Shown here piece after piece: positions 34,178-51,406 of a stretch of DNA of 64,000 bases; positions within the stretch are counted from its first letter, which is position 1, and every line of letters begins with the position of its first letter. Under the pieces are notes generated by a model. It did not search any database and was not told where the DNA came from. It saw nothing but the letters and a program-made list of their open reading frames with translations. Position numbers and translations under genes: made by a program. Origin of the DNA: an uncultured Flavobacteriaceae bacterium (GTDB lineage: Bacteria; Bacteroidota; Bacteroidia; Flavobacteriales; Flavobacteriaceae); assembly GCA_905181615.1 (NCBI GenBank), contig CAJIYH010000006.1, positions 62,001 through 126,000 of the forward strand, read 5' to 3'.

Positions 34178-35260
34178 TTATTTATTTACAATTTCTTCCT
34201 GGTGGTTAATAGACTCTTGGTGAATTGCTTTGAATATCTTCAGGATAAACTCTTCTGAAAGATTGCGATCTTGACCTTCTAAAATCATTTTACCTAAAAT
34301 CTCATTCCAACGTTTGTTTTGTAAAACAGCAACGTTTTTAGATTTTTTAAGAGAACCTATTTCTTCGGCTACTTTCATTCGCTTTCCTAAAGTATCTAAT
34401 ATGGTTTGATCTGCAATATCAATTTGTGCACGAAGTGTATTTAAAGAAATATTGTATGCTTCTTCTTGATTCGTTTCTTTTCTAATTTTGAGATCCTTCA
34501 TAATTTGAACTAAAACCGTTGGGGTTACTTGTTGGGCTGCATCACTCCAGGCATTATCTGGATCCCAATGCGTCTCAACCATAAGCCCATCATAATTTAG
34601 ATCCAATGCCATTTGACAGATATCAAAGATTAGATCTCTTCTTCCAGCAATGTGAGAAGGATCGCAGATCATAGGTAAATCTGGAAATCTATTTTGTGCC
34701 TCAACAGCAATTTGCCATTCTGGATTATTTCTGTATTTTGATTTTTCATAAGAAGAAAAGCCTCTATGAATTAAACCTAATTTCTTGATGTTGGCTGTGT
34801 ACAAACGTTCTACACCTCCCAGCCATAAAGCTAAATCTGGATTTACAGGATTCTTAACTAAAACAATCTTATCCGTTCCTTCAAGAGCATCTGCAATTTC
34901 TTGCATAATAAAAGGGCTTACAGTTGAGCGAGCTCCAATCCAAAGTATATCTACATCATGCTCGATTGCTAATTTAATATGAACTGCATTAGCAACTTCA
35001 GTTGCAGTAAGAAGTCCTGTTTCTTGTTTTGCTTTTTGAAGCCACTTTAGTCCAATTGCACCTACTCCTTCAAACATTCCTGGGCGCGTTCTTGGTTTCC
35101 AAATTCCGGCACGTAAAACCGTTACATCGGTATCTTTAAGTTCGTGGGCAATTTTCAATACTTGTTCTTCTGTTTCTGCGCTACAAGGACCGCCAATTAC
35201 AAGTGGGTGAGAAAGACTAAAGTCGTTAAGCCATTCTCTCATTTGAGGTTTGTTTTCCAT
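34178..35260 (-). CDS. DAHP synthase / chorismate mutase fusion
   Basis: 360 residues in two domains. About 1-265: type Ibeta DAHP synthase related to KDO8P synthase (GGPCSAETEEQ, LRAGIWKPRTRPGMFEG, DPSHIAGRRDL), the first step of the shikimate pathway. About 270-345: AroQ-type chorismate mutase (LRAQIDIADQTILDTLGKRM, EEIGSLKKSKN). The fusion ties entry into the pathway to the branch enzyme and often makes DAHPS sensitive to prephenate or chorismate. Last gene of the Phe/Tyr operon; 10 nt after tyrA. Confidence 0.95.
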   Translation of the reverse strand: MENKPQMREWLNDFSLSHPLVIGGPCSAETEEQVLKIAHELKDTDVTVLRAGIWKPRTRPGMFEGVGAIGLKWLQKAKQETGLLTATEVANAVHIKLAIEHDVDILWIGARSTVSPFIMQEIADALEGTDKIVLVKNPVNPDLALWLGGVERLYTANIKKLGLIHRGFSSYEKSKYRNNPEWQIAVEAQNRFPDLPMICDPSHIAGRRDLIFDICQMALDLNYDGLMVETHWDPDNAWSDAAQQVTPTVLVQIMKDLKIRKETNQEEAYNISLNTLRAQIDIADQTILDTLGKRMKVAEEIGSLKKSKNVAVLQNKRWNEILGKMILEGQDRNLSEEFILKIFKAIHQESINHQEEIVNK

Positions 35261-35270
35261 TTTATTTGAT

Positions 35271-36125
35271 TTATTTTTTGCTAATTCCGTTTAAAATTGA
35301 TGTTAACTGATTTGTATTTTTCATTTCCTGAAACAAAGCTTCATAGTCATCATTTGCTAGAAGACTTTTGAAGTTTTCTAAATTCTTAATATAGGCCTCA
35401 AGTGTTTCAATTACATTTTCTTTATTCTGTTCAAAGATTGGTGTCCACATAGCGGGAGAACTTTTGGCCAATCGAACAGTGGATTCAAATCCACTTCCCG
35501 CGAGGTCAAAGATATTATTCTCATTCTCTTCTTTCTCAAGAACAGTTTTTCCTAACATAAAAGAGCTAATGTGTGATAAATGAGAAACATATGCCATATG
35601 CTTGTCGTGTTCTTCTGCTTCCATAAAACGCAAGTACATTCCCATTTGACGAAAGGTTTGTTTTGCCCACAACAACAGGTCAGGGCGCGTTTTATTGCAC
35701 TCACATAATATCTGTGGTTTACTCTGAAACAGGCCTTTGTGGGCAGCTTGAGGACCCGAAAATTCAGTTCCTGCAATGGGGTGTGCCGCTAAAAACTGAT
35801 CTCTCTTTGGGTGACTTGAGATGAGTTTACATAATTGTTCTTTTGTAGAGCCAACATCCCAAATCAGTGCATCGGCATGTATCTTGTCTAACAACTCAGG
35901 AAGGAGATGCATTGATTCTTTAACAGGAATACTCAAAATAACGCGGTCTGCTTCGGTTATAGATTCTAAAGATCCTATTCGATCTATAATCCCTAGACTA
36001 AGAGCATCGTCTAAATGAATTTTATTTGTATCTATTCCAATGATTTCTATATCATTCAATGTTTTTTTTAGATCTAAACCCATAGAACCTCCAATCAAAC
36101 CAATTCCGATTACATAAATTTTCAT
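35271..36125 (-). CDS. tyrA: Prephenate dehydrogenase
   Basis: 284 residues. Oxidises prephenate to 4-hydroxyphenylpyruvate with NAD(P). Rossmann motif GIGLIGG at 7-13, AAHPIAGTEFSG at 113-124 and the SHLSH helix at 181-185, which contains the catalytic/substrate His region. No chorismate mutase domain and no ACT domain, so feedback by Tyr at the protein level is not apparent; the mutase comes from the neighbouring fusion protein. Overlaps the aminotransferase gene by 4 nt. Confidence 0.95.
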   Translation of the reverse strand: MKIYVIGIGLIGGSMGLDLKKTLNDIEIIGIDTNKIHLDDALSLGIIDRIGSLESITEADRVILSIPVKESMHLLPELLDKIHADALIWDVGSTKEQLCKLISSHPKRDQFLAAHPIAGTEFSGPQAAHKGLFQSKPQILCECNKTRPDLLLWAKQTFRQMGMYLRFMEAEEHDKHMAYVSHLSHISSFMLGKTVLEKEENENNIFDLAGSGFESTVRLAKSSPAMWTPIFEQNKENVIETLEAYIKNLENFKSLLANDDYEALFQEMKNTNQLTSILNGISKK

Positions 36126-37276
36126 GATTTAAGTCGATTAATTGCGGTTTGTATATCTTCTAATTTAACACATAAAGAGAAGCGGATATATCCTTCTCCT
36201 TGGCTTCCAAATATTGTTCCCGGAGTGATGAAAATATTATATTCTAAAAGTACGCTGTCTATGAATTCTTCTGATTTTATAGACTGGTTCTTTAACTTAG
36301 CCCACAAAAACATCCCTACACTTTTAGGATCAAATTCACTTCCCATAAGGGTTGCTAACTCAATCATGGCTTTCCTGCGTTCTGCATAAATTTTATTTAG
36401 CTCTTCAAACCAAATGTTTTCAAGTTTTAACGCTGCAATTGCACCTTTTTGAATTCCAAAAAACATTCCAGAATCCATATTACTTTTAACCTTTAATACC
36501 GCATTAATATATTTTGAATTTCCAGTTAGCATTCCTACGCGCCATCCCGATAAGTTATATGCCTTACTTAAAGAGTTAAGTTCTATAGCAACATCCATTG
36601 CTCCAGTTTGACTCATTAAACTTTGTGGATTTTTATTTAAAATAAAACTATATGGATTGTCATTGATTAATAAAACATCATTTTTCTTTGCCCATTCAAT
36701 CAAGCGGATAAAGGTATCAACATCTACTTGAGCACCAGTTGGCATGTGTGGATAATTTAACCACATTAACTTCACATTTGTTGTGTCAACTTTTGATAAA
36801 GCTTCAAAATCAGGTTGCCAATTGTTTTCTTCTTTCAAATCATAGAATACAGCTTCTGCTTCAAGCAATTGAGTAATGGAACTGTAGGTAGGATATCCTG
36901 GGTTTGGAATTAATACTTGATCTCCTTTGTTCAGAAATGCCATAGAAATATGCATTATACCTTCTTTCGAGCCCATAAGAGGAAGCACTTCAGAATTAGC
37001 GTCTAGAGTCACATTATACTGTTTTTGATAAAAAGAAGCAATCGCCTCTCTTAACTCTGGAAGCCCTTGATAACTTTGATACATGTGCGCTTTTGGCTCG
37101 AGCAAACTATCCTTGATAGCCGCAATAACTGAAGGATCTGGAGGTAAGTCTGGACTTCCAATCCCCATATTAAGGATTGGTTTCCCTGCTTTAATCAAAG
37201 CCGATACTTCTCTAAGTTTTTTAGAAAAATAATATTCTTTTACGCTGTCAAGGCGCTTTGCTGTTCGAGTACTCAT
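36122..37276 (-). CDS. Class I aminotransferase of the Phe/Tyr operon
   Basis: 384 residues. NYPHMPTG at 174-181 and PLP Lys238 in LNSLSKAYNLSGWRVG. It resembles the LL-diaminopimelate-type/aspartate subgroup by overall pattern, but its position between pheA and tyrA with 4-nt overlaps on both sides makes it the likely aromatic aminotransferase turning phenylpyruvate and 4-hydroxyphenylpyruvate into Phe and Tyr. Substrate is inferred from context only. Confidence 0.88.
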   Translation of the reverse strand: MSTRTAKRLDSVKEYYFSKKLREVSALIKAGKPILNMGIGSPDLPPDPSVIAAIKDSLLEPKAHMYQSYQGLPELREAIASFYQKQYNVTLDANSEVLPLMGSKEGIMHISMAFLNKGDQVLIPNPGYPTYSSITQLLEAEAVFYDLKEENNWQPDFEALSKVDTTNVKLMWLNYPHMPTGAQVDVDTFIRLIEWAKKNDVLLINDNPYSFILNKNPQSLMSQTGAMDVAIELNSLSKAYNLSGWRVGMLTGNSKYINAVLKVKSNMDSGMFFGIQKGAIAALKLENIWFEELNKIYAERRKAMIELATLMGSEFDPKSVGMFLWAKLKNQSIKSEEFIDSVLLEYNIFITPGTIFGSQGEGYIRFSLCVKLEDIQTAINRLKS

Positions 37277-38100
37277 AGTTTGTTTTTTGGGTATTCTCCA
37301 AGAATTTTAAATTCAGTTGCCATGATTTCTATTATAGATCGGGCTTTTTTATAATGCTCAATAGCGTCAAAGGTAACGTCAACAAAAAAGGCATATTTAC
37401 CAGGTGTTTCAATTACAGGTAAGGATTGAATTTTGGTTAAGTTCAATTGACAATCACTCATAACGTTTAAAACCGCAGCAAGACTTCCTCTTTGATGGTC
37501 TAATACAAATTTTAGAGCCGCTTTATTTATGTTTTTATCTTCAACCAAAGCTCCCTTTTTCTGAACGATTACAAAACGAGTTACATTGTTCTTAATGGTT
37601 TGAATTGATTCTGAAAACACTTCCAAATTAAAAATATTAGCAGCTTTTGTACTCGCCACTGCTCCAATTCCATGAAGTTGATCTTCTTCGATCTTACGGG
37701 CTATATCCGCAGTGTCTTCGGCTTCAACTAAACGTATATGTGAATGTTCTGAGAAAAAAGATTTACACTGCAACAAAGCCATGGGATGAGAATGCACTTC
37801 TTTTAGGTCTGCAATAGATTGACCTTGAAGTCCCATTAGGTTATGTTCTATATTTAAGTATGATTCTCCAATAATTTGCAGGTTGTGCTTGTCTAATAAT
37901 GCATAATTTGGGATGATGGATCCGGCAATAGAATTTTCAATTGCCATAACCGCTTGGGTTGCTCTCCCTGAAACTAAAGCGTCTGCTAAGGCATCAAAAG
38001 TTAGGCATTCTGAAATCTGAATATCTGACGGAAAATAGTTCAATGCCACCTGATGGTGAAAAGATCCTTGAATTCCTTGAATAGCGATTATCGATTGCAT
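37273..38100 (-). CDS. pheA: Prephenate dehydratase
   Basis: 275 residues. A catalytic PDT domain (ENSIAGSI at 55-62, HSHPMALLQC at 103-112, NNVTRF at 171-176 with the catalytic Thr) and a C-terminal ACT domain (about 195-270) for Phe feedback, with ETPGKYAFFVD at 231-241 in place of the classical ESRP loop. No mutase domain. First gene of the operon behind the attenuator, so it is controlled by transcription attenuation and probably also allosterically by Phe. Confidence 0.95.
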   Translation of the reverse strand: MQSIIAIQGIQGSFHHQVALNYFPSDIQISECLTFDALADALVSGRATQAVMAIENSIAGSIIPNYALLDKHNLQIIGESYLNIEHNLMGLQGQSIADLKEVHSHPMALLQCKSFFSEHSHIRLVEAEDTADIARKIEEDQLHGIGAVASTKAANIFNLEVFSESIQTIKNNVTRFVIVQKKGALVEDKNINKAALKFVLDHQRGSLAAVLNVMSDCQLNLTKIQSLPVIETPGKYAFFVDVTFDAIEHYKKARSIIEIMATEFKILGEYPKNKL

Positions 38101-38121: not shown

Positions 38122-38150
38122 AAAAAAAAAGTCCCGATTAAATCAGGACT
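38122..38150 (-). terminator. Attenuator terminator (3:4 helix) before pheA
   Basis: On the minus strand AGTCCTGAT, loop TTA/TAA, ATCGGGACT: nine base pairs with one T-G wobble, plus a flanking A-T pair, followed by nine T. It stands 22 nt before the pheA ATG and after the leader peptide, so it would stop transcription unless the antiterminator forms. Confidence 0.9.
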
Positions 38151-38210
38151 TGTATAGGTTATCAACTTAATAATATTACAATGCCCTGTTGTCTTCTAGA
38201 TAAAAGAAGA
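38130..38210 (-). promoter_or_regulatory. Phe/Tyr attenuator RNA (helices 1:2, 2:3, 3:4)
   Basis: Minus strand, in order. Helix 1:2: TCTTCT (38210-38205, within the Phe codons) pairs with AGAAGA (38197-38192) over a 7-nt loop. Helix 2:3 antiterminator: CAGGGCATTGTA (38188-38177, ending at the leader stop codon) pairs with TACAAGTCCTG (38154-38144) as CAGG/CCTG and TTGTA/TACAA with a small internal loop. Helix 3:4 is the terminator, which uses the same GTCCTG. A ribosome stalled on the Phe run frees strand 2 and permits readthrough. One reaching the stop codon covers strand 2 and lets the terminator fold. Confidence 0.85.
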
Positions 38211-38247
38211 AAAAGAAACGGTTGTAATATGAAGTTGTTGTTGTCAT
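38176..38247 (-). CDS. Phe/Tyr leader peptide of the pheA operon
   Basis: 23 codons: Met, four Thr, Ser, Tyr-Tyr, Asn, Arg, five Phe in a row, Tyr, then LEDNRAL and TAA. Eight of 23 residues are Phe or Tyr, the two end products of the operon. The ATG is 18 nt past the -7 box, the stop lies inside antiterminator strand 2, and the terminator follows 25 nt later. Codons, structure and gene context all fit a ribosome-sensing leader peptide comparable to enterobacterial pheL but independent in sequence. Confidence 0.88.
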   Translation of the reverse strand: MTTTTSYYNRFFFFFYLEDNRAL

Positions 38248-38265
38248 TTTTGTTTTAATACATTA

Positions 38266-38296
38266 CAAATGTACACTCCAGATTGAGAAAAACAAA
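38266..38296 (-). promoter_or_regulatory. Promoter of the Phe/Tyr operon
   Basis: On the minus strand TTTG (38296-38293), a 19-nt spacer and TACATTTG (38273-38266), an exact match to the Bacteroidota consensus. The predicted transcription start near 38259 leaves about 12 nt before the leader-peptide ATG. Confidence 0.8.
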
Positions 38297-38380: not shown

Positions 38381-39463
38381 ATGATTGAAGAAATCCTAAA
38401 CATTGAAAATATTGACATATACTTTGTTATTGGAATAATATTATTTTTTGGGATTTTAGAGAGTATTTCTGGTTTTTTAAAAAACTCAAATCGAAAAAAA
38501 GGAGATTGGATTCAAGAAATTATGAGTTTTTTTGTTTTAGGAAATCTAGTTAAGCCTCTTATTGTTTTTTTGATATTCAAAGCTGGAGATTTGTATTTTC
38601 CAGAGTATCGATCTAGTTTAGGTTCATATTCTTTTATCATATTATTTTTAAGCTACATACTTATAGACGACCTTCTTCAATATTGGTATCATCGCACAGC
38701 TCATGAAACTCCATTTCTATGGAAACTACACAGACCACATCACCAAGCTGAAGAAATGGGATATTTTGTTTCCTATAGAAATGCATTACTTTATTACTTA
38801 TTGATGCCTAACATTTGGTGGGTTGCACTGGTTCTGTTTTTGGGCGGTGCTAAGGCAGTAGCTCTAGGATTAATCCTGAAACAATTTGTTATTATAGGCT
38901 CTCACAGCCGATTGAAGTGGGATAAACCTTTTTATGAATATGCTGTGTTACATCCAATAATTAAAGTAATAGAGCGGATCATTATCACTCCAGCATTCCA
39001 CCACTCACACCATGGAACTTCTCGTTTAGATTCTGCTAGTGAACCCAATGGAAATTTTGGCAATATGTTTAGTCTTTGGGATCAACTTTTTGGGACAGCT
39101 ACGTTTCAAAACAGCTATCCAAAAGAATATGGTTTACAACAAAAAACAAACGATCCTTGGACTGCATCCTATTTTTATCCTTTTGTTAAATCACCTGACC
39201 CAAAAAGCGAATGGAATTCAGGATTTAAAAAAACGGATACTTTGTCTTTAGAAGCACTTTCTGTTTCTTTAACCAAAGGAGAAAATTATTTATGGTGCGC
39301 GTGTGGCATGAGTACTAAACAGCCCTTTTGTGATGGTTCGCATCATGGATCTAAGTTTAAACCTCAAAAATTCACTGCTAAAAGAACGGGAGAAGTTAAA
39401 CTCTGTAATTGCAAAAAAAGTAATCAAACTCCGTTTTGTGATGACACCCACCTTACCCTATGA
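38381..39463 (+). CDS. Sterol desaturase/hydroxylase fused to two CDGSH motifs
   Basis: 360 residues. About 10-245 is a membrane fatty-acid hydroxylase/sterol desaturase domain with four or five helices and di-iron His motifs HRTAH (104-108), HRPHH (117-121) and HHSHH (207-211). After a linker come two CDGSH-type 2Fe-2S motifs: Cys306, Cys308, Cys317, His321 (FCDGSH) and Cys342, Cys344, Cys353, His357 (FCDDTH). The tail could deliver electrons to the di-iron centre, which normally depends on an external donor; that is inference. Lipid substrate unknown. The SDR gene overlaps its end by 4 nt. Confidence 0.88.
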   Translation: MIEEILNIENIDIYFVIGIILFFGILESISGFLKNSNRKKGDWIQEIMSFFVLGNLVKPLIVFLIFKAGDLYFPEYRSSLGSYSFIILFLSYILIDDLLQYWYHRTAHETPFLWKLHRPHHQAEEMGYFVSYRNALLYYLLMPNIWWVALVLFLGGAKAVALGLILKQFVIIGSHSRLKWDKPFYEYAVLHPIIKVIERIIITPAFHHSHHGTSRLDSASEPNGNFGNMFSLWDQLFGTATFQNSYPKEYGLQQKTNDPWTASYFYPFVKSPDPKSEWNSGFKKTDTLSLEALSVSLTKGENYLWCACGMSTKQPFCDGSHHGSKFKPQKFTAKRTGEVKLCNCKKSNQTPFCDDTHLTL

Positions 39464-50146: not shown

Positions 50147-51406
50147 TTAAGTTATATTAAATTGTTTTTTTATTTGGTTGATATGATCTAGTTTTTCCCA
50201 CGTAAATAATTCAACTTCTTGAGTGATTTTACCGTTGTAAGGAGATTCGAAAGTTTTAGTTATTTTTCTGGGGAGGCGCCCCATATGACCATAAGCTGCA
50301 GTCTCGAAATATATTGGACTACGCAGTTTTAAGCGTTGTTCAATTCCATAAGGAGTCAAATCAAAAAGAGACGTGATCTTTTCCGCAATTTGACCATCAG
50401 TTAAATTGATTTTAGATTTACCAAAAGTATTAACCGCAATAGAGGTAGGGTGAGCAACACCAATAGCATAACTCAATTGAACTAAAAGCTCGTCCGATAC
50501 ACCCGCAGCAACCAGGTTTTTGGCTATATGTCTTGAAGCATAAGCTGCACTGCGGTCAACTTTACTGGGATCTTTCCCGCTAAAAGCTCCACCACCATGC
50601 GCTCCTTTTCCTCCGTAAGTATCTACAATTATCTTTCTCCCTGTCAAACCAGTATCTCCATGAGGACCTCCAATAACAAATTTACCTGTAGGGTTAATGT
50701 GATAGGTTATCTTATCATCAAAAAGAAGTTGAATGCGCTCTGGTAATTGGGCTTTTACTCTTGGAATTAAAAAAGAAATTAAATCACTTTTAATCTTCGC
50801 TAGCATAGCATCATCATCCGTATCAAATTGATCGTGTTGCGAAGATATCACAATAGTATCTATTCGAATGGGGGTTCCATTATCATCATATTCTAAGGTA
50901 ACTTGAGATTTCGCGTCGGGTCTCAAATATGTAATGTCTTTCAACTCTCTTCTAAGAGCTGCAAGTTCAATCAGCAGCTTATGAGATAAATCGAGTGCTA
51001 GAGGCATAAAGTTATCCGTCTCGTTAGATGCATAACCAAACATAATTCCCTGATCACCTGCTCCTTGATTTTTTTTGTCCACTCGAACAACTCCCTGGTT
51101 TATATCCTGAGATTGTTCATGAATTAAGGAAATAACGCCACAAGAATCACCGCTGAACTGATATTCTCCTTTAGTGTATCCAATTTTATTAATGGTATCA
51201 CGAGCAATTTTCTGGACATCTAGATAGGTTGTACTCTTAACTTCTCCTGCCAAAACAGCTTGACCTGTAGTTACTAAGGTTTCACAAGCCACCTTGCTTT
51301 CGGGGTCAAAAGCTAAAAAATTATCAACAAGTGCATCACTTATTTGATCTGCTACTTTGTCAGGATGACCTTCACTTACGGATTCTGATGTAAAAAAATA
51401 AGACAT
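50147..51406 (-). CDS. metK: S-adenosylmethionine synthetase
   Basis: 419 residues. ATP + Met to [18 protein letters not shown] at 11-25, [12 protein letters not shown] in the middle, [19 protein letters not shown] later: all MetK signatures. It contains a modest insertion near 150-200 compared with E. coli MetK (384 aa), typical of Bacteroidota. First gene of the met operon, directly behind the SAM-II riboswitch, so its own product closes the feedback loop. Confidence 0.98.

Follow-up and report, generated by a model that had tools for sequence, protein, structure and literature searches.

Classical attenuation is represented by the trp, phe, and his leaders of enterobacteria. In Escherichia coli, pheL encodes a short Phe-rich leader peptide upstream of pheA. 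The thrL and ilvL leaders of enterobacteria each serve several end products of a branched pathway. A comparative study of 2010 by Lopatovskaya and colleagues may cover Bacteroidetes. Leader-like ORFs are mentioned for Bacteroides thetaiotaomicron in the available part of one report (PMC7366714). In the available part of another, transcriptomics of Flavobacterium psychrophilum revealed a structured, transcribed 5′ element at pheA without an Rfam hit, and structured 5′ elements at pheA and hisG were also present in other Flavobacteriaceae genera (PMC9723704). Its authors saw strong indications of attenuation by leader peptides upstream of amino-acid operons in these bacteria, whose messages, according to the same text, are devoid of Shine-Dalgarno sequences (PMC9723704).

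It was found that the pheA gene of an uncultured marine Flavobacteriaceae bacterium has a leader that is most likely of this kind. The gene lies in the window, that is, the whole stretch of 64,000 nucleotides analysed here. Like the E. coli pheA attenuator, the leader combines a Phe-rich peptide, a terminator before pheA, and a competing antiterminator, with the same proposed logic. Unlike pheL, it would read Phe and Tyr (and Trp too in many relatives), and it drives a pheA-aminotransferase-tyrA-DAHP synthase/chorismate mutase operon from a flavobacterial promoter. It resembles thrL and ilvL in that a single leader would serve multiple end products of a branched pathway, but the amino acids (Phe, Tyr, and in relatives Trp), the operon, and the phylum are different, and the operon includes the entry enzyme of the pathway. 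The F. psychrophilum element is likewise structured, located upstream of pheA, and found in several genera; the available text of that report is without the peptide, helices, codon content, and spacing, which are given here (PMC9723704). The two are very probably the same element. In the literature searched (mostly open full text, without supplements), I identified no other account of the pheA leader in flavobacteria, of its Trp codons, or of its spacing rule. The attenuation principle is old and a pheA 5′ element in Flavobacteriaceae has already been noted; the window leader is a well-supported further case. Its computed anatomy, conservation, and geometry suggest, with a probability of about 93%, that it is a ribosome-mediated transcription attenuator, in which termination, readthrough, and a response to Phe and Tyr would follow from the arrangement described below.

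The aromatic operon and its leader

The start of pheA at 38100 and a divergent ORF beginning at 38381 enclose a gap of 280 nt, as an earlier note on this DNA had claimed. On the minus strand, the gap holds the promoter, the leader ORF, and the terminator in this order, with a competing antiterminator, followed by pheA. The operon genes are as follows.

37273–38100, minus strand: pheA, prephenate dehydratase (PF00800)
36122–37276, minus strand: class I/II aminotransferase (PF00155), overlapping pheA by 4 nt
35271–36125, minus strand: tyrA, prephenate dehydrogenase (PF02153; NF006307 above its cut-off)
34178–35260, minus strand: DAHP synthase fused to chorismate mutase (PF00793 and PF01817)

Judging from the gene context, the aminotransferase is probably the aromatic one. 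A genome search showed that the second PF00793 protein is a KDO-8-phosphate synthase, with no further ones, and a search for a type II DAHP synthase in the 95.5%-complete genome gave none. Thus, the DAHP synthase of the operon is the only one found in the genome. The nearest named relatives, taken as the best 80 of 523 matches, belong to Candidatus Arcticimaribacter, other Flavobacteriaceae, Flavobacterium, Winogradskyella, and Mesoflavibacter; the order of the four genes is kept in 78 of these 80, and fewer of the four genes were found in the other two. The divergent ORF (38381–39463, plus strand) encodes a single protein with a fatty-acid-hydroxylase domain (PF04116) and CDGSH iron-sulphur motifs (PF09360). 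With this ORF pointing the other way, the terminator cannot be that of an upstream gene and would act only on the pheA transcript. The features of the leader region are listed below.

38266–38296, minus strand: Bacteroidota sigma-A-type promoter, with −33 TTTG (38293–38296), a 19-nt spacer, and −7 TACATTTG (38266–38273)
38176–38247, minus strand: leader ORF of 23 codons, MTTTTSYYNRFFFFFYLEDNRAL, with ATG start and TAA stop; similar leaders occur in relatives
38222–38237, minus strand: strand 1 of helix 1:2 (CAACUUcAUAUUACAA), from the minimum free energy (MFE) fold; pair counts refer to the inner nine pairs
38224–38229, minus strand: Tyr codons 7 and 8, within strand 1 (codon reading)
38200–38217, minus strand: main regulatory run, codons 11–16, five Phe and then Tyr (codon reading)
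38192–38210, minus strand: small hairpin UCUUCU/AGAAGA, the apical part of the real helix 1:2
38177–38188, minus strand: 5′ strand of antiterminator 2:3 (CAGGGCAUUGUA), ending within the stop codon
38163–38181, minus strand: strand 2 of helix 1:2 (UUGUAAUAUuauuAAGUUG), across the stop codon, from the MFE fold; pair counts refer to the inner nine pairs
38144–38154, minus strand: 3′ strand of antiterminator 2:3 (UACAAGUCCUG), which overlaps the terminator in its 5′ arm
38129–38151, minus strand: terminator stem-loop 3:4, 10 pairs with loop UUA, AAGTCCTGAT-TTA-ATCGGGACTT
38122–38130, minus strand: T9 tract of the terminator, whose first two T are also paired in the stem

The promoter was present where it had been noted (38296 to 38266); TAnnTTTG is given as the −7 box in the available text of PMC9723704. 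The bare pattern has four matches in the window against 2.49 expected, and 20 of 100 shuffles contained as many. Being no commoner in the window than chance would give, it was rejected as evidence by itself; only its position and conservation count. A similar pattern, with at most one mismatch per box, yet recurs before 128 of 145 leaders of relatives (88%), against 18% in mononucleotide shuffles. The predicted 23-codon ORF (38247 to 38176) was also as claimed: a run of end-product codons, FFFFF, with three Tyr codons in all, stands before the pheA/tyrA operon.

The leader RNA fold is 4.3 standard deviations below shuffles in energy, and none of 200 shuffles was equally stable. In the MFE fold, helix 1:2 is formed by CAACUU-c-AUAUUACAA (38237–38222) with UUGUAAUAU-uauu-AAGUUG (38181–38163). 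Its strand 1 sits on the Ser-Tyr-Tyr-Asn codons (Tyr 7 and 8), off the Phe run. The earlier note had placed helix 1:2 on the Phe codons as TCTTCT/AGAAGA, which proved to be the tip only. This hairpin (38210 to 38192) lies outside the pairing strand of 2:3 and therefore cannot compete with it, so that the proposed set of three overlapping helices did not hold with it; as the protector helix 1:2 it was rejected, AGAAGA being outside the strand used by 2:3. Its pairs are present in 77% of the relatives' cells (29–59% when slid; 1 of 500 shuffles as high), partly via TTC and GAA codons, and it may be a real apical hairpin, though not the switch. The long helix is the true 1:2: its strand 2 runs across the stop codon and has bases in common with the antiterminator strand.

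Antiterminator 2:3 pairs CAGGGC-(A)-UUGUA with UACAA-GUCCUG, giving 11 pairs with one bulged A at −13.6 kcal/mol. The helix had been correctly recognised, except that it does not start at the leader stop; its 5′ strand (38188–38177) ends inside the stop codon. Similarly, the nine T of the terminator are there (38130–38122), and the stem has 10 pairs instead of 9. A terminator scan found one here against 0.2 in shuffles, placing an intrinsic terminator between the leader and the first gene. The terminator and the antiterminator have AAGUCCUG in common. Since the real 1:2 and the terminator each overlap 2:3, the helices are mutually exclusive as attenuation needs; with the hairpin on the Phe codons as 1:2, the excluding helix would be missing.

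Conservation of the leader and its helices

An ATG-initiated ORF with at least seven Phe or Tyr in 12 codons, no more than 230 nt from pheA, was found in all 80 of the best named relatives (of 523 matches), each of which also has a terminator with 6 to 9 T. Is this common in the family? Among 199 genomes drawn from Flavobacteriaceae, 178 have a pheA match, and 123 of these formed the family sample: L099–L217 (119) and L279–L282 (4), with L271 standing for L127. A Phe/Tyr-rich leader precedes pheA in 119 of the 123 (114 of 119, L271, and 4 of 4); at the score rule, none was found before pheA in the remaining four, L102, L195, L210, and L216. The score of 6 was reached by 114 of 118 real family regions and by 167 of 2360 shuffles of the same regions. 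The leaderless pheA gap of L102 contains a GC-rich inverted repeat (TCCCGC...GCGGGA) at least twice.

Outside the family, eight genomes of the order included five clear leaders (L272, L273, L274, L277, and L278) and a weak one below the rule (L276), and no leader was found in the other two (L275 and L283). A leader is present in 9 of 12 genomes from other families of the class, none being found in L233–L235. In other classes of the phylum, the count is 4 of 19. These four (L236, L242, L243, and L244) have a pheA closer to that of the window (42–44% identity) together with a Phe/Tyr-rich leader; in the remaining 15, pheA is more distant (31–36%) and stands without such a leader. It is possible that leader and pheA were transferred together in the four.

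For the helices, 156 loci ranging from genus to phylum level yielded 148 leaders, eight scoring below 6 having been left out. A terminator was found in 148 of 148 leaders scoring at least 6, against 6 of 148 shuffles. Duplex energies were computed for 146 leaders, two with too short a strand-2 region being omitted. The mean for 2:3 was −13.3 kcal/mol against −6.5 in shuffled strands, with 90% of leaders individually at 5% or better, and that for 1:2 was −16.7 against −10.1 kcal/mol, with 79% at that level. Since the leaders are of common ancestry, such shuffle comparisons overstate independence. Removal of three duplicates from the 148 left 145 leaders, and of two more with short regions 143, which were used for partner exchange and spacing. 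Exchange of partners between leaders of different sequence weakened every helix (2:3 from −13.0 to −9.2, 3:4 from −13.7 to −9.8, and 1:2 from −16.7 to −11.2). Pairing with the own partner was better than the average over partners from other leaders in 94% (2:3), 99% (3:4), and 97% (1:2) of the 143, and the median share of non-cognate partners pairing equally well was 11%, 6%, and 5%, respectively. This loss in all three helices is covariation seen without an alignment.

In an alignment of 36 close leaders, 1:2 and 3:4 were paired in 94.1% of cells, against 38–51% when slid. These two helices had 21 two-sided cells against 6.9 in shuffles; controls slid by +1 to +3 also gave 15–17 two-sided cells, and pair types did not exceed their number in shuffles. 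In relatives, helix 1:2 is not perfect, 89% of its cells being paired. Its pair 21:73 is U-A in 12, C-G in 10, U-G in 9, and other or unpaired in 5 of the 36. Thus, in leaders that end at this point, the silent third position of a Tyr codon changes along with the third position of the stop codon. Helix 2:3 was paired in 88.4% of cells of the 36 leaders, with no two-sided change and no covariation above shuffles. The comparative check suggested beforehand, for conserved Phe/Tyr runs and helices in relatives, was strongly positive across the family. Compensatory changes were clear in 1:2, whereas the cores of 2:3 and 3:4 are nearly invariant in close relatives and are backed by the partner exchange among distant ones.

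Ribosome position and competing explanations

In the proposed mechanism, RNA polymerase would initiate from the promoter (TTTG/TACATTTG), trailed by a ribosome on the 23-codon leader. With ample Phe and Tyr, the ribosome would reach the stop codon and cover the antiterminator's 5′ strand, leaving strand 3 to pair with strand 4, and transcription would end at T9, short of pheA. Under a shortage of charged tRNA-Phe or tRNA-Tyr, the ribosome would stall at codons 7–8 or 11–16, block or break 1:2, and leave the antiterminator strand free, so that 2:3 would form first. The terminator would then come too late, and pheA, the aminotransferase gene, tyrA, and the DAHP synthase/chorismate mutase gene would be transcribed. 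Without a ribosome, 1:2 and 3:4 would form and transcription would terminate.

The ribosome was modelled with its front edge at +14 nt, counted from the first base of the codon in the A site. This value is borrowed from other bacteria; the available text of PMC4833913 gives a coverage of up to 12 nt beyond a stop codon. At any codon up to 16, the modelled ribosome leaves all 11 pairs of 2:3 before strand 4 exists, while at codons 17, 18, and 19 the free pairs number 7, 5, and 0. Codon 16 is the last Phe/Tyr codon of the window leader, and the 2:3 strand begins 14 nt past its first base. In the computed geometry, a ribosome at the control codons thus frees the 2:3 strand, and one at the stop codon covers it. 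In equilibrium folds of the full leader, the terminator is favoured over 2:3 by about 1 kcal/mol with the ribosome at codons 6–10 or 13–16, and 2:3 is favoured at codons 4, 5, 11, and 12. The switch therefore needs 2:3 to be formed first, before strand 4.

This spacing recurs among the leaders. Counted from the first base of the last codon for Phe or Tyr, the antiterminator starts 10–18 nt further on in 140 of 143 leaders, against 23% of shuffles, in a search that began just past that codon; with a wider search region beginning at codon 11, the count was 140 of 145. The median is 14 nt with a standard deviation of 2.1, against 12.7 in shuffles, and the spacing is looser when measured from the stop codon (standard deviation 6.5). 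With the edge at +14, the last ribosome position freeing 2:3 and the last Phe/Tyr codon are at most one codon apart in 140 of 145 leaders. A spacing tied to the last Phe/Tyr codon is a prediction of a ribosome-read switch, not of a riboswitch or a plain terminator.

Could the leader RNA be a metabolite riboswitch or a protein-bound attenuator, with a short ORF that is incidental or marginally used? A structured 5′ region with a terminator and an antiterminator would suit such an element, and riboswitches can precede amino-acid genes. However, no riboswitch, T-box, or other Rfam cis-element matched the pheA leader at the gathering score, and the weak matches look like chance. The Phe_leader family RF01859 scored 17.9 bits (E 1.1) against a gathering score of 55, and the window leader is therefore not in that RNA family. 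Moreover, codon identity is conserved (Phe, Tyr, and Trp in frame, with ATG in all 148 leaders) while the sequence of the RNA varies, and strand 2 keeps a set distance from the last Phe/Tyr codon. I regard this explanation as very improbable. Equally improbable is a constitutive partial terminator accompanied by a conserved small protein with its own function and no switching: the peptide is conserved in outline, yet its carboxy end varies among relatives (e.g., SRS, KRNEALYV, RTL, and RGTGLL) while the Phe/Tyr/Trp content and the antiterminator spacing are kept, and helices 1:2 and 2:3 would be left unexplained. Least probable of all is a translational leader whose coupled or re-initiating ribosomes set pheA translation, the hairpin being secondary; for leader genes near structural genes, a role in re-initiation has been proposed, with a Bacteroidetes peak at 11–14 bp in the available text of PMC4833913, but here the leader stop is 75 nt before pheA (38176 to 38100), well past that peak, with the T9 terminator in between. 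Ribosome-mediated attenuation by Phe and Tyr, as the earlier note had read the locus, is supported by the family-wide leaders, terminators, helices, and spacing.

Amino acids probably sensed and related leaders

Which amino acids would be sensed? From its codons, the window leader appears to read Phe and Tyr and may respond to charged tRNA-Phe and tRNA-Tyr. In 70 of 114 family leaders, Trp occurs within the regulatory run, and it never occurs outside the run; it makes up 71 of the 547 non-Phe/Tyr residues of the 13-codon regulatory stretch against 0 of 1037 outside. The Trp positions are often Phe or Tyr in other genera and sometimes Asn. Since Trp lies inside the regulatory run, many genera probably have a pan-aromatic sensor, unlike the window. 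Retention of the Trp codon for RNA pairing and not for sensing was not favoured, because Trp codons are no more paired than their neighbours (0.60 against 0.64). A mixed aromatic signal fits the operon, the sole place in the genome where a DAHP synthase was found. I lean, by a little, towards the view that across Flavobacteriaceae and several other families of the class one leader is a pan-aromatic gauge of Phe, Tyr, and, in most genera sampled, Trp on a DAHP-synthase operon, with Trp swapping with Phe or Tyr, and that the Arcticimaribacter-like clade of the window has lost or never had Trp.

The same genome has other leaders. On the minus strand at L245 (G000:C2), a His-bearing leader MKRNLLHNNHHFTVSNEL and a terminator CCCGTTTGATGTTTCAAACGGG-T8 lie shortly before hisG, likely a his attenuator as read from the sequence. 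At about 54 kb (L246, G000:C6), outside the window, a Trp-Trp leader MKRLTNFTAWWNE and a terminator GGCTTGTCATCACGACAAGCC-T6 lie shortly before a probable trpE, likely forming a trp attenuator by the same kind of reading. Neither the his nor the trp leader locus has an Rfam match, and no terminator was found by the rule used at the thrA-like and ilvD loci of the genome. The Rfam scan of the window gave a single match, a SAM-II riboswitch (RF01726, 51457–51518, minus strand, 66.5 bits). It lies directly 5′ of a metK-like ORF (50147–51406), followed by O-acetylhomoserine sulfhydrylase-like and homoserine acetyltransferase-like ORFs, named by sequence reading.

The pheA leader offers a fully laid-out and testable attenuator in a phylum where such control has been noted but, in the literature searchable, not dissected. 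The spacing rule gives a simple route to finding more leaders in Bacteroidota. If confirmed, the leader would mean that attenuation is at work in bacteria with messages lacking Shine-Dalgarno sequences. The Trp codons predict a three-amino-acid sensor at the gateway of aromatic synthesis. If this is true, the pan-aromatic leader would be a widespread branch of attenuation, with his and trp sister leaders within one genome, in a phylum where Shine-Dalgarno pairing is said to be little used.
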